NCBI GenBank assembly: GCA_903900705.1
Contig: CAIUOG010000029.1
Span: forward strand, 1 to 37,228
DNA length: 37,228 nucleotides
Direction: 5' to 3'
Source of the DNA: an uncultured Acidobacteriia bacterium
Lineage (GTDB): Bacteria; Acidobacteriota; Terriglobia; Bryobacterales; Bryobacteraceae
Position numbers and translations under genes: made by a program. The notes under the pieces were generated by a model. That model was not told the origin of the DNA and did no database searches. It saw nothing but the letters and a program-made list of their open reading frames with translations. This document shows positions 14,410 through 17,988 of this stretch, piece after piece; the stretch's first letter is position 1, and every line of letters begins with the position of its first letter.

Positions 14410-15144
14410 TTGATTCCACTCCGCCATTCCGACGTGCCGTGGCATTTTGTGTTTGAATCGCTGGCCTATGTGGTGGCGTTCCGATACTACATGCGGGACC
14501 GGGAGAGGCGGGGGGATTTCCTGCCGGATCCGGAGCGGAGTTCGCTGATGGTGGCGGCGATTGTGGGGGCGGCGGCGGGGAGCAAGATGCTGGACTGGCT
14601 GGAGGACCCGGCGGTGGTGCTGGCGCACTGGCGGGATCCGGCGATTCTGGTGGGCGGGAAGACGGTGGCGGGGGCGCTGCTGGGCGGGACGATGGCGGTG
14701 GAACTGGCGAAGCGGAAGCTGGGGATCGGGCGGCGAACGGGGGATTTGTTTGTGACGCCGCTGGCGCTGGGGATTGCGATCGGGCGGGTGGGGTGTTTTC
14801 TGACGGGGCTGGACGACCACACGTACGGGACCGCGACTTCCCTGCCCTGGGCGGTGGATTTCGGGGATGGGGTGGGCCGGCATCCGACACAGATTTATGA
14901 ACTGCTGGCGCTGGCGGCGGCCATTCCGCTGCTGCGGCGGTTCGATCGGGTAAAGCCGCGCGAGGGGGATGTGTTCCGGCTGTTTCTGTTCGGGTACTGC
15001 GGGTGGCGAGTGCTGGTGGACTTTCTCAAGCCGGACCCGCGATTCGGGGGGATGAGCGCGATCCAGTGGGCGTGCGCGGGGGCGATGGTCTGGTATGCGC
15101 GCGATATTCTGCGAATTCTGAGGGAAAGGCGGGGAAATGGCTGA
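14410..15144 (+). CDS. Divergent prolipoprotein diacylglyceryl transferase (Lgt) family membrane protein
   Basis: This 244-residue multispanning protein has Lgt-family landmarks: 'GRVGCFLTGL' at 125-134 (Lgt signature, with the conserved Arg126), 'RHPTQIYE' at 157-164, and a C-terminal 'WRVLVDFLKPDP'. Canonical Lgt moves a diacylglyceryl group from phosphatidylglycerol to a prolipoprotein Cys at the membrane. Two deviations stand out. The Asn of the 'GRxGNF' signature is Cys129, and the region matching the catalytic His segment reads 'VGGKTVAGALLGG' with no His. The protein is also shorter than typical Lgt. It starts at TTG 14410 with AGGGA upstream and overlaps the radical SAM gene by 8 nt. 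It could be a true Lgt, or a relative acting on another phospholipid headgroup; context favours lipid chemistry. Confidence 0.72.
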   Translation: MIPLRHSDVPWHFVFESLAYVVAFRYYMRDRERRGDFLPDPERSSLMVAAIVGAAAGSKMLDWLEDPAVVLAHWRDPAILVGGKTVAGALLGGTMAVELAKRKLGIGRRTGDLFVTPLALGIAIGRVGCFLTGLDDHTYGTATSLPWAVDFGDGVGRHPTQIYELLALAAAIPLLRRFDRVKPREGDVFRLFLFGYCGWRVLVDFLKPDPRFGGMSAIQWACAGAMVWYARDILRILRERRGNG

Positions 15145-16558
15145 TCGGGTGCGCCCTTATCTGTATTACGACATTGCGGTGTCGATCTGCTCGCAGTGTT
15201 TCCGGCGGGTGGACGCGAAGATCGTATTCGAGGATGGCAACGTTTACATGCTGAAGCGGTGCGCGCGGCATGGGTTTGAGCGGGTGCTGATTGCGGATGA
15301 CGTGGAGTATTACAAGCTGTGCCGGGAAGTGTTCCTGAAGCCGCCGGAGATGCCGAATGTGTACAACACGCCGGTGAAATGGGGGTGCCCGTACGATTGC
15401 GGGCTGTGTCCGGACCATGAGCAGCATTCGTGCCTGACGCTGCTGGAGATTACAGATCACTGCAATCTGCGGTGCCCGGTTTGTTACGCGTCGAGCGGAC
15501 CGGAGCGGACGGGATATCGGGATCTGGCGACGGTGGAGCGGATGCTGGACGCGATTGTGCGGAATGAGCGGCAGCCGGATGTGGTGCAGATATCGGGGGG
15601 AGAGCCGACGCTGCATCCGCAGTTTTTTGAAATTCTGGACATGGCGAAGCAGCGGCCGATTCAGCATCTGATGCTGAATACGAACGGGATCCGGATTGCC
15701 CGGGACCGCGAGTTTGCCGAGCGGCTGGCGGGGTATATGCCGGGATTCGAGGTGTATCTGCAGTTCGACTCGTTTCAGCCGGAACCGCTGCTGAAGCTGC
15801 GGGGGGCTGATCTGCGGTCGATCAGGGAGCAGGCGGTGGCGCGGTGCAATGAGCTGGGGATTTCGACGACGCTGGTGGTGACGCTGCAGAAGGGGCTGAA
15901 CGACGGGGAGTGCGGGGCGATTGTGGACTGGGGGCTGCGGCAGAAATGCGTGCGCGGGGTGGTGTTCCAGCCGATTCAGGTGGCGGGGCGGGTGGAGAGT
16001 TATGATCCGGCGAAGGACCGGCTGACGCTGACGGAGGTGCGGCGGCGGATTCTGGAGCAGACGACGGTGTTTCGGCCGGAGGATATTATTCCGGTGCCGT
16101 GCCATCCGGACAGCCTGGCGATGGCGTATGCGCTGAAGGTGGGCGACGGGGTGGTGCCGCTGACGAGTCTGGTGAAGCCGGAGGTGCTGATCGGGGCGGG
16201 GCGAAATACGATTGTGTTTGAGGCGGATGAGGGTCTGACGAAGGAGATTTTCCGGACGTTTGCGACGAATCATTCGCCTGAGAGCGGGGCGGAGAGCCTG
16301 AAGAGTCTGCTTTGTTGTCTGCCACAGGTAGAGGCGCCGGAGGAGATGGGGTATCAGAACGTGTTCCGGATCATCATTATGCAGTTTCTGGATGCTTATT
16401 CGTTTGATCTGCGGAGCGTGAAGAAGAGCTGCGTTCATATCGCGCATCCGGACGGGCGGATTCTTCCGTTCGATACTTATAACCTGTTCTACCGGGATGG
16501 TCTGGAGGCGGAGATTCTGGGGCCGCTGCGGGCAGAGAGGGAGCTTTCCGGTGTCTGA
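15137..16558 (+). CDS. Radical SAM protein of the tetraether lipid synthase (Tes/MJ0619-like) type
   Basis: This 473-residue cytoplasmic or membrane-associated enzyme has a core radical SAM motif CNLRCPVC with Cys109, Cys113 and Cys116, and 'SGGEPT' at 153-158 for SAM binding. The N-terminal region carries many extra Cys: C18 and C21 (CxxC), C42, C62, then 'GCPYDCGLCPDHEQHSC' (C84, C88, C91, C99). The C-terminus has 'FLDAYSFDLRSVKKSCVHI' and 'DGRILPFDTYN'. This arrangement resembles Tes, the archaeal enzyme that joins two phytanyl chains to make tetraether lipids and carries auxiliary iron-sulfur clusters. Archaeal members, as I recall, read 'PFCAYN' where this one has Asp. In an acidobacterium the plausible role is tail-to-tail coupling of fatty acyl or alkyl chains for membrane-spanning lipids. 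Family-level similarity is strong; the exact substrate is inferred. It overlaps both neighbours by 8 nt. Confidence 0.82.
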   Translation: MADRVRPYLYYDIAVSICSQCFRRVDAKIVFEDGNVYMLKRCARHGFERVLIADDVEYYKLCREVFLKPPEMPNVYNTPVKWGCPYDCGLCPDHEQHSCLTLLEITDHCNLRCPVCYASSGPERTGYRDLATVERMLDAIVRNERQPDVVQISGGEPTLHPQFFEILDMAKQRPIQHLMLNTNGIRIARDREFAERLAGYMPGFEVYLQFDSFQPEPLLKLRGADLRSIREQAVARCNELGISTTLVVTLQKGLNDGECGAIVDWGLRQKCVRGVVFQPIQVAGRVESYDPAKDRLTLTEVRRRILEQTTVFRPEDIIPVPCHPDSLAMAYALKVGDGVVPLTSLVKPEVLIGAGRNTIVFEADEGLTKEIFRTFATNHSPESGAESLKSLLCCLPQVEAPEEMGYQNVFRIIIMQFLDAYSFDLRSVKKSCVHIAHPDGRILPFDTYNLFYRDGLEAEILGPLRAERELSGV

Positions 16559-16871
16559 AAAAAAGCCAACAACGGTGGGACGGGGAATGGCCACAGGGTG
16601 CCTGCTGCATCTGCTGCTGATTCCCCTGGCGTTTGTGGCGGCGTTTATCGGGATGCTCTTCGATAAGCGGGAGGGTGCGCTGACGGGGTTGATGATCGGG
16701 TATTGGGGGCCGTTGGCGCAGTTACTGTATCTGGCGCCGGCGGCGATGCGGTATCACAGGCGCGGGGAGAGGGAAGGGGTGAAGGGCATCGTGATCGTGG
16801 GGGTGGTGACTGCCCTGGCCTGCGTGCCGTGCTGGCTGATCGCGTTGCAGGCGGTGATGCGGCATGTTTGA
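16551..16871 (+). CDS. Small three-helix membrane protein downstream of the Tes-like gene
   Basis: From GTG 16551 the product has 106 residues with three hydrophobic helices (about 15-37, 44-65, 78-100) and charged loops ('MRYHRRGEREGVKG'). GGGAG about 8 nt upstream and the 8-nt overlap with the radical SAM gene support this start over a longer frame opening at 16497. It is a paralogue of the next gene: both share a Gly-Cys-x-Leu lead, a central 'YxRRG-E-KG' loop and a late Cys-Trp. I do not recognise a family. Position suggests a membrane partner or lipid-handling subunit for the cassette. Confidence 0.7.
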   Translation: MSEKKPTTVGRGMATGCLLHLLLIPLAFVAAFIGMLFDKREGALTGLMIGYWGPLAQLLYLAPAAMRYHRRGEREGVKGIVIVGVVTALACVPCWLIALQAVMRHV

Positions 16872-17163
16872 TTCGCGGAAGGACAGTGTGAACACTGGGG
16901 TGGTGGCGGGATGTACGTTGAATGTGCTGCTGGGGCTTTTGCTGTTTATCGCGATGTTCCGGCAGGCAGGCAAGGGGGAGGCCGGGAAAGTGCTGGAGTT
17001 CGCGCTGGGGGGAATCGGAATCACACAGTGGGTGGCGCTGGGGCCGTGCATCTACCGGCTGCGGGGTAACGGGGAAGCAGAGATGGCGAAGGGGATGGCA
17101 ATTGCGGGAGGGATCACGATGCTGCTGAGCGGAGGCTGCTGGGCCCTGGTGCTGGTCCACTGA
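16864..17163 (+). CDS. Small three-helix membrane protein, paralogue of the preceding gene
   Basis: The product has 99 residues with hydrophobic helices at about 12-32, 43-62 and 76-97, linked by 'YRLRGNGEAEMAKG', which matches the loop of its neighbour. It begins 8 nt inside the previous gene (ATGTTTGA), repeating the overlap style of the whole cassette. No catalytic motif is visible. It is the last gene of the four-gene set; a weak hairpin (7-bp stem, 17175-17211) follows. Function unknown; a role beside the Tes-like enzyme is an inference from co-translation. Confidence 0.68.
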   Translation: MFDSRKDSVNTGVVAGCTLNVLLGLLLFIAMFRQAGKGEAGKVLEFALGGIGITQWVALGPCIYRLRGNGEAEMAKGMAIAGGITMLLSGGCWALVLVH

Positions 17164-17226: not shown

Positions 17227-17988
17227 TTAGCGGCGGCGGAGGAAACGGACGCCGGCGCCGAGGGCGAGGAGCATGAGGCCCGCGGTGGAGGGCTCGGGAG
17301 CGGCGGCGGCATCGGAGCCGACGAGCTGGAAGCCATTGAAGTCGCCTTCATACGAGTCGCCGGAATTGAAGGTGATGGTGAGGTTGCCGCTGCCATCGGC
17401 GAAGGTGTCGGCGAAGGCGTAGTTCTGGCCGAGGACGAAGGTATTCAGGTTGTCGGCATCGACCTGCGTGGTGCTGGTGGTGACGCCGTTGGCGTTGAAG
17501 TCGACGACGCGGCCGTTGGTGTTCTTGTTGGCCTGGGTATAGAAGTAGATGGAATATTCTCCGCCGGCGGTGAGGCCGGTGAGTGAGACGTTGCTGTTGC
17601 CCCGGCCCGCCACGAGGTACGAGGCCATGAGGTTTTCATAGGGCGTGCCGTGGAAGGCGGTGTCGTTGTAGTAGTTGTTGGCGCCGGAAGTGTCGTGTTC
17701 GTTCCACTGGCTGGCGGCGCTGTAGGTAAGGCCTACAGAAGTGGCTGCGCCGCCCGTGTCGAGCAGAGAGTTGAGCGAGCCGCTGCCGTTCTGGCTGGCG
17801 GCCATGTTCCAGTAGTCGCCGGCGCTGCCGATGACGGCGGCACCGGTCTGGGCGGATGTGCTGCCGCCGGCTCCATTACAGGACGCACCGGACTGGCAAC
17901 CGAACTGCACGTTGATGCTGGCGGCGTGGGCGGTGACGCCGAGGAAGAAGCAGGCAGCGATGCCTGCGAGAGTGTTGTTTCGTTTCAA
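17227..17988 (-). CDS. PEP-CTERM sorting-signal protein, secreted
   Basis: This 253-residue exported protein has a signal peptide (1-22, 'CFFLGVTAHA'), a Gly/Ser/Asn-rich beta-type body ('VGLTYSAASQWNEHDTSG', 'GEYSIYFYTQANKNTNGR') with a Cys pair near residues 30-37, and a C-terminal tripartite sorting tag: 'PEPSTAG', a hydrophobic stretch, and 'RFLRRR'. Such proteins are cleaved at PEP by an exosortase and linked to the cell surface or exopolysaccharide matrix. The start is TTG 17988 with GGAGG 6 nt upstream. No matching XrtA-type gene lies nearby; the exosortase at 21.6-23.2 kb is of another subclass. The 127-bp upstream gap contains inverted and direct repeats. Confidence 0.88.
   Translation of the reverse strand: MKRNNTLAGIAACFFLGVTAHAASINVQFGCQSGASCNGAGGSTSAQTGAAVIGSAGDYWNMAASQNGSGSLNSLLDTGGAATSVGLTYSAASQWNEHDTSGANNYYNDTAFHGTPYENLMASYLVAGRGNSNVSLTGLTAGGEYSIYFYTQANKNTNGRVVDFNANGVTTSTTQVDADNLNTFVLGQNYAFADTFADGSGNLTITFNSGDSYEGDFNGFQLVGSDAAAAPEPSTAGLMLLALGAGVRFLRRR

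Follow-up and report, generated by a model that had tools for sequence, protein, structure and literature searches.

Tes-like radical SAM proteins with an altered C-terminal site and an Lgt-like partner form a widespread clade

Does a homologue of the archaeal tetraether lipid synthase (Tes) in an uncultured acidobacterium make membrane-spanning lipids? The question is raised by a stretch of 37,228 nucleotides (hereafter, the window), which is one complete contig (CAIUOG010000029.1, here G000:C29) of an Acidobacteriia genome. It carries a gene, running from ATG to TGA, for a radical S-adenosylmethionine (SAM) protein of 473 amino acids (P0001). A preliminary description, made from the sequence alone, had placed this protein in the Tes family and linked it to iso-diabolic acid and branched glycerol dialkyl glycerol tetraethers (brGDGTs). 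The open reading frame (ORF) is real and the acidobacterial host is borne out, the nearest named loci being Bryobacterales metagenome-assembled genomes (MAGs) at 77% and 75% identity. The cysteine motifs described are also all present: C18xxC21, GC84PYDC88GLC91PDH, C109xxxC113xxC116, and S431CVHI...DGRILPFD446. We find that the protein belongs to a distinct and widespread Tes-like clade, which has a changed C-terminal site and a partner related to the lipoprotein-modifying enzyme Lgt.

Kinship with the tetraether synthases

The kinship with Tes is far above chance. The radical SAM domain is recognized by PF04055 (E 3.7e-24) along with its CxxxCxxC motif, and a phmmer search of the Protein Data Bank returns GDGT-MAS/Tes (7TOL) at E 8.7e-70, with the second-best match at 6.5e-4. 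An AlphaFold model built from 68 alignment rows (mean predicted local distance difference test score, pLDDT, 85.6; predicted template modeling score, pTM, 0.88) is matched by Foldseek to 7TOM with a query template modeling score (TMq) of 0.80. The best other of the 50 matches listed, 7TOL apart, reaches 0.39. As modeled, the protein contains the whole archaeal tetraether synthase fold. It shares with archaeal Tes/GDGT-MAS (MJ0619; 7TOL, 7TOM; NF045702) the four-domain architecture, the rubredoxin-like site, the N-terminal cluster site, and the SAM cluster site.

By the tests applied, the protein is nevertheless not Tes proper. It scores 273.9 bits against the NCBIfam Tes model NF045702, whose equivalog cut-off is 450, and 317.1 bits against the TrsS model NF045646, which is its top match by bits and has a cut-off of 490. 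Four further clade members (L021, L036, L057, and L053) likewise fall below both cut-offs, and the TrsS rows L155 and L156 pass the TrsS cut-off at 561 and 548 bits. Tes proper was rejected as an identity on the basis of this score, the separate clade, and the replaced C-terminal cysteines. The family assignment in the preliminary description thus holds for a Tes-superfamily radical SAM protein with the Tes fold (7TOM, 0.80), and fails for Tes itself (274 of 450 bits; own clade).

In a tree of 43 rows (IQ-TREE, LG+C20, rooted on two relatives of 700 amino acids, with only two TrsS and four Tes rows), all 29 clade rows lie on one side of a branch with 100/99 support, which places the window protein outside Tes. 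A second branch (100/98) splits the clade, TrsS, and a methyltransferase-linked group (x) from all four Tes rows. Going outward from the clade, the tree meets L151, the x group, TrsS, and then MJ0619 with the bacterial Tes rows; the two TrsS rows are joined at 100/100 and branch apart from the clade. The order of these outer groups is less sure, since the branches of L151 and L154 are long and the program cautioned that long branches come together at L154 and at TrsS. The four Tes rows form a grade rather than a clade, and the window clade may therefore descend from Tes.

The clade covers at least five bacterial phyla. One scan of genome contigs returned 77 relatives with 57-77% identity in the best segment, and their titles name Acidobacteria, Planctomycetota, Omnitrophota, Bacillota, Bacteroidota, and Pseudomonadota. 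The Omnitrophota MAG clusters with acidobacterial rows in the tree, so a binning error or transfer is possible. Cultured carriers include Neobacillus, Paenibacillus, Flavobacterium, and Hymenobacter; many carrier bacteria are aerobic. Among 396 Acidobacteriota genomes, 22 have a top score of at least 478 bits, and in the others it is 316 or less. Because these genome surveys scored only the best few first-look candidates per genome (four for the enzyme, seven for Lgt), their counts may be low. In three loci, L165 (G450), L077, and L170 (G280), the radical SAM gene is split across several frames, as would result from decay or assembly errors.

The C-terminal site

We aligned 75 clade rows with four Tes, two TrsS, six x, and two long (700 or more amino acids) relatives. 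Clade rows of 400 amino acids or fewer were excluded (6 of 78 in one alignment), and three rows stop before the last columns, where the total is 72. At least 74 of the 75 clade rows retain the rubredoxin ligands, the N-cluster cysteines (C73, C77, and C80 of MJ0619), and the cysteines of the SAM cluster (Table 1); the rubredoxin ligands, the N-cluster cysteines, and a conserved histidine are named for MJ0619 in the accessible text of PMC9433317.

The C-terminal part differs. Cysteine occupies the positions of MJ0619 C338, C455, and C470 in 4/4 Tes, 2/2 TrsS, 2/2 long, and 5/6 x rows, a conservation that suggests that these residues are cluster ligands in Tes; PMC9433317, in the part available, names the remaining ligands together with Met439. 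In the clade, alanine and serine prevail at the first position, serine or threonine at the second, and acidic residues at the third, where cysteine occurs in 0 of 72 rows. The preliminary description had correctly given PFC as the archaeal motif (C470 of MJ0619), and had read the window's PFD as altered cluster ligation or a different substrate. What stands of this is that PFD goes together with changes at the other C-terminal cysteines and is part of what the alignment presents as a clade-wide rebuild of the C-terminal site. The idea that PFD is an oddity of one genome was rejected, as D or E is found throughout the clade alignment.

The clade has cysteines of its own in this region. C322 is shared with the x rows and corresponds to selenocysteine in the two TrsS proteins (L155 and L156, with TGA read as U), C432 is also found in x and TrsS, and the C393-C394 pair is present in almost all clade rows. 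Tes Tyr459, strictly conserved across 1,000 archaeal homologues according to the available text of PMC9433317, is replaced by Ile435 here and by isoleucine in 68/72 clade rows. The labile Met439 of Tes corresponds to Met415, with methionine in 49/72 rows. The stretch from P319 to position 326 measures 8 residues in all 75 clade rows, against 29 in the four Tes rows, 33 in the long relatives, and 8 or 9 in TrsS and x. In Tes, an S-C intermediate has been assigned to the C-terminal cluster (PMC9433317, in part), and the changed site thus touches the heart of the chemistry.

Table 1. Genes and residues of the four-gene array (window positions; counts are alignment rows of the clade)
Feature	Position	Strand	Remarks
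Lgt-like integral membrane protein (PF01790), 244 aa	14410..15144	+	TTG start; 8-bp overlap with radical SAM gene; Pfam E 2.7e-24
Tes-like radical SAM protein (P0001), 473 aa	15137..16558	+	ATG to TGA
Rubredoxin-like metal site C18, C21, C42, H45 (MJ C9, C12, C33, H36)	15188..15271	+	74-75/75
N-terminal [4Fe-4S] site C84, C88, C91, with invariant His94, His97	15386..15427	+	75/75
Radical SAM CxxxCxxC (C109, C113, C116)	15461..15484	+	75/75
C322, invariant in clade	16100..16102	+	75/75; 4 residues ahead of changed Tes cysteine position
S326, replaces Tes C338	16112..16114	+	A 41, S 23, C 11 of 75
C393-C394 pair	16313..16318	+	74/75; within model loop 373-402, pLDDT below 50
S431 (replaces Tes C455) and adjoining C432	16427..16432	+	S/T 70/72; C432 71/72
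D446 of PFD, replaces Tes C470	16472..16474	+	D 40, E 32 of 72
Small membrane protein 1, 106 aa	16551..16871	+	GTG start within 3' end of radical SAM gene; C-terminus ...CVPCWLIALQAVMRHV
Small membrane protein 2 (tandem), 99 aa	16864..17163	+	C-terminus ...LLSGGCWALVLVH; resembles the first, E 1.3e-8

The Lgt-like partner and the small membrane proteins

The radical SAM gene is the second of four plus-strand ORFs in a head-to-tail array (14410-17163). Overlaps of 8 bp also join it to the first small gene, and the first small gene to the second. The interval given in the preliminary description is right for the radical SAM ORF and omits these accompanying genes (14410-15144 and 16551-17163).

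Among 78 loci, made up of the 77 relatives and a plasmid of Persicobacter (L172), 73 have an Lgt-like gene on the same strand, upstream of the radical SAM gene. The ends of the two domains are separated by no more than 60 bp in 39 of the 73, by 61-600 bp in 15, and by over 600 bp in 19. Three of the five exceptions (L031, L050, and L061) have a paralog elsewhere in the genome; L056, with a genome of 2.2 Mb, has a weak match only, and L053 (Colwellia), whose gene lies near a contig end, has none. Across the 396 Acidobacteriota genomes, the Lgt paralog (at least 267 bits) occurs in 21, the enzyme in 22, and both in 20. The paralog is thus present in 20/22 enzyme-bearing and 1/374 enzyme-less genomes (Fisher test, P = 2e-30, on genomes that are not independent). 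The mismatches are weak: the paralog frame enters a contig end in G062, the radical SAM copy spans two frames in G280, and in G401 the radical SAM match starts at residue 41, without residues 1-40, at a locus cut at its end. Chance adjacency was rejected, given this co-occurrence and the 73/78 linkage.

An Lgt-like gene also stands on the same strand beside two more distant Tes-like genes, downstream in G240 (174 bits) and upstream in G266 (121 bits). By eye, the distant Tes-like protein at G266:C141:99500-105317 (L168) seems to be without the N-terminal cluster cysteines and to have the C-terminal ones. As it adjoins an Lgt-like gene, the pairing may predate the clade. The outside relatives L150 and L152-L157 showed no Lgt-like gene within their flanks of about 1.5 kb or less. 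In the open-access literature, as far as listings and accessible passages show, we found no report of an Lgt-radical SAM pairing, nor any in the accessible text of PMC8939145. Two loci are unusual in their domain layout. In Hymenobacter (L128, G044:C14), an Lgt-type domain opens a 639-residue frame with a long C-terminal extension, and in Neobacillus pocheonensis (L073), both domains share one open frame; this single case may stem from a frameshift or an error in sequencing, and no argument here relies on it.

The Lgt-like protein is a second copy rather than the housekeeping enzyme. The same genome has a housekeeping lgt (G000:C87), which scores 191 bits against 86 for the Lgt-like copy, and in six of seven other carriers searched, one copy scores strongly and another weakly; in the seventh, Colwellia, only the strong one was found. 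The AlphaFold model of the Lgt-like protein (pLDDT 92) has a sole fold match at E ≤ 0.001, Escherichia coli Lgt (5AZB; TMq 0.59). In an alignment of 67 Lgt-like rows with E. coli Lgt (NC_000913) and 10 housekeeping-type copies, R143, G154, and E202 are kept in all 67 rows, and Y235 and R239 in 66. The partner thus shares with Lgt its fold and these five residues, and differs at Y26, H103, N146, and E151; N146 is replaced by cysteine in all 67 rows.

Downstream, we looked for ORFs of 55-175 amino acids with at least two hydrophobic stretches, starting from -14 to +70 bp from the end of the enzyme gene. Of 99 loci examined, six were at an edge and 93 testable, and such an ORF directly follows in 56 of the 93. 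All 56 of these proteins contain cysteine. In an alignment-free count that took the ORF with most helices at each locus, it lies within the last 26 residues in 55/56 (shuffled mean 21.6, maximum 34; loci not independent). Cysteine falls in two adjacent columns in 49/56, against a shuffled maximum of 8. Because that control leaves the alignment as it was, it is biased towards the observed value, and the alignment-free count is the sounder of the two. Twelve acidobacterial loci have instead a membrane protein between the two genes, with a cysteine ending the first hydrophobic stretch (by eye); a lenient scan for such proteins (19/30 loci) also caught membrane genes of other kinds, and its total is not relied on. 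Six of these small proteins, of either kind (L004, L027, L026, L012, L016, and L018), gave no Pfam match.

Nine ORFs in 8.9-19.4 kb of the window were scanned. Those outside the array comprise purine genes, one ORF that matched nothing, and genes for a PEP-CTERM protein and a tetratricopeptide repeat protein; no further lipid gene was seen among the nine. The gene of the PEP-CTERM protein adjoins the array at 17227-17988 on the minus strand.

Possible functions of the module

The clade, its residue exchanges, and the gene linkage are established by the data above; the lipid substrate, a cluster at the new cysteines, and the bond formed are inferred. As the most likely reading, we tentatively propose that the radical SAM enzyme and the Lgt paralog together act on a lipid with a diacylglyceryl group, or on a lipidated membrane peptide, and form a bond at an unactivated carbon. 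These two proteins would make up a conserved module, often joined by a small membrane protein whose last helix carries a cysteine close to its end. The enzyme would cleave SAM reductively, and the 5'-deoxyadenosyl radical would abstract a hydrogen from an unactivated carbon in the lipid tail. A C-terminal iron-sulfur cluster on C322, C432, and the C393/C394 loop, perhaps with the carboxylate at position 446, could hold the resulting radical, as is assumed for the C-cluster of Tes, so that a C-C or C-S bond could form. Both catalytic arginines and the phosphatidylglycerol-binding fold are retained in the Lgt paralog, which would supply or move the diacylglyceryl group, and the acceptor might be a second lipid or the cysteine of the small protein. 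As product we would expect a phosphatidylglycerol derivative with modified chains, or else a lipidated membrane peptide, rather than bulk tetraether.

Several observations weigh against this proposal. In all 67 Lgt-like rows, H103 is replaced by V, M, L, A, or I and Y26 by histidine, and E151 is retained in only two. E. coli Lgt mutants of R143, R239, H103, Y26, and E151 are inactive (PMC4728403, in the text available). With H103, Y26, and mostly E151 lost, the Lgt-like protein may bind lipid without transferring it; H103 is also missing in 3 of 11 housekeeping-type copies. The reduction of the 29-residue Tes stretch to 8 could mean that part of the Tes lipid pocket is missing. Loop 373-402 with its cysteine pair is poorly predicted, the ligand roles are drawn from the alignment, and the Colwellia member L053 is without both the pair and an Lgt-like paralog in its genome. 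Lastly, the search found no such small protein directly downstream in 37 of the 93 testable loci. We consider that the Lgt-like protein probably still binds phosphatidylglycerol, with a different acceptor or base.

A bolder form of the proposal, which we regard as quite unlikely, is that the Lgt paralog lipidates the cysteine located where the last helix of the small protein ends on the outer side, and that the enzyme then welds the lipid tail, through a C-C or C-S bond, either to a further lipid or to the protein itself. The outcome would be a covalently pinned, membrane-spanning lipopeptide. The cysteine would have lipobox geometry if the N-terminus of the small protein were inside. The strict lipobox pattern is [LVI][ASTVI][GAS]C. 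The contexts seen here (LLNAAC, LIGLGxC) fit it poorly, and the small protein as acceptor is therefore a guess.

The same small protein suggests another reading, unlikely but with a genuine chance of being right: that the enzyme is a peptide or protein maturase, making a thioether or other crosslink on the small cysteine-bearing protein in the manner of ribosomally synthesized and post-translationally modified peptides (RiPPs), while the Lgt paralog lipidates or escorts it. The start of the small gene overlaps or abuts the end of the enzyme gene, the terminal cysteine is conserved, and a RiPP-lipoprotein hybrid offers a precedent (PMC12636315, in part). However, no SPASM or peptide-recognition domain scored above its own cut-off in family scans of the window ORFs, the small protein was not found downstream in the 37 loci counted above, and the best fold match is a lipid enzyme.

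The loss of H103 and Y26 could also mean that the Lgt paralog is a mere membrane anchor or sensor, and that the enzyme alters a small molecule or a cofactor in a reaction that does not involve lipids. We hold this to be unlikely. Relatives outside the clade, themselves without a known function, adjoin a methyltransferase gene, which is consistent with such a role; the retention of the catalytic arginines and the Lgt fold, and a Tes architecture with a precedent for lipid binding, speak against it.

More improbable is that the protein is a true tetraether or membrane-spanning lipid synthase, which would couple a pair of iso-C15 tails to give iso-diabolic acid or brGDGT. Homology, the common fold, and possible descent from the Tes grade argue for it, as does the presence of the clade in Bacillales and Bacteroidota, which are groups rich in iso-C15 chains. 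In archaeal Tes, density was read as phosphatidic acid (PMC9433317, in part), and bacterial Tes homologues have been counted and proposed, unproven, for brGDGT synthesis (PMC8941075, PMC10087280, and PMC11868695, each as far as accessible). An alternative proposed route is Mss/Ger (PMC13274423, in part). Against it stand the score below the Tes cut-off, the separate clade, the replacement of C338, C455, C470, and Tyr459, the 21 residues missing at one site in 75/75 rows, the Lgt partner, and the sporadic distribution.

The enzyme occurs in 3 of 121 relatives including the genome of the window (G000, G013, and, in pieces, G450), and, within the same class, in 18 of the 150 genomes of one family (f4), three of them as fragments. 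In the accessible text of PMC11354219, all six Edaphobacter strains of one study contained iso-diabolic acid, at 11.8-30.4%. None of the f4 genomes was matched to an Edaphobacter strain, and f4 as Acidobacteriaceae is a guess. So patchy a spread (3/121, 22/396, and 18/150) speaks against a general synthase of iso-diabolic acid or brGDGT, and the synthase role suggested by the preliminary description is thus not upheld. Bacterial Tes above the cut-off is found separately in the window's own family, in G019 (L081, 573 bits) and G020 (L082, 565 bits), neither of which matches the window enzyme at E 1e-60. L081 and L082 are candidates for brGDGT synthesis.

Identity with a TrsS-type (seleno)protein is very improbable and was rejected: TrsS gives the top NCBIfam score, its selenocysteine aligns with C322, and it has a similarly short stretch before position 326 (9 residues in TrsS), but the window protein lies far below the TrsS cut-off on a separate branch, has no TGA, and is without cysteine at 326, 431, and 446, where both TrsS rows keep the Tes cysteines.

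These distinctions bear on how bacterial Tes homologues are counted. The brGDGTs are the lipids behind soil and lake paleothermometers, and 456 homologues (PMC8941075) and 281 MAGs (PMC11868695) have been counted as candidate makers in the accessible parts of these papers. If clade members are included, such counts contain an enzyme without the Tes C-terminal cysteines and with another partner. A simple residue test separates the two: PFC in Tes, PFD/E and LLCC in the clade. The pairing of the enzyme with an Lgt paralog points to a previously unrecognized modification of membrane lipids or of proteins anchored by lipids, and the linkage makes its function testable in the cultured carriers.

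The methyltransferase-linked group has 30-39% identity and similar length to the window protein, and its six rows (L002, L150-L154) share C322 and C432 with the clade. It differs in that five of six keep cysteine at all three Tes positions and in its partner, a methyltransferase. One member lies in the window's own genome (L002, G000:C45:61491-62858), which is 36% identical and directly precedes a methyltransferase gene. The same order, a Tes-like gene and then a methyltransferase gene, is also found on a Mycolicibacterium plasmid (L173, 39%) and on a plasmid of the haloarchaeon Halorarius (L174, 30%), neither of which is in the tree. L002, L173, and L174 all score below the Tes and TrsS cut-offs and perhaps represent another conserved two-gene system.

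Proteins of 700 or more amino acids that resemble Tes and Grs occur in the same genome (L003, G000:C54:75571-77130) and in many of 41 relatives searched (some of L083-L110), with about 307-335 bits against the Tes model; the N-terminal cluster cysteines are absent in both rows aligned. In G305, the gene that follows TrsS (L156) resembles, by eye, a coenzyme A ligase.

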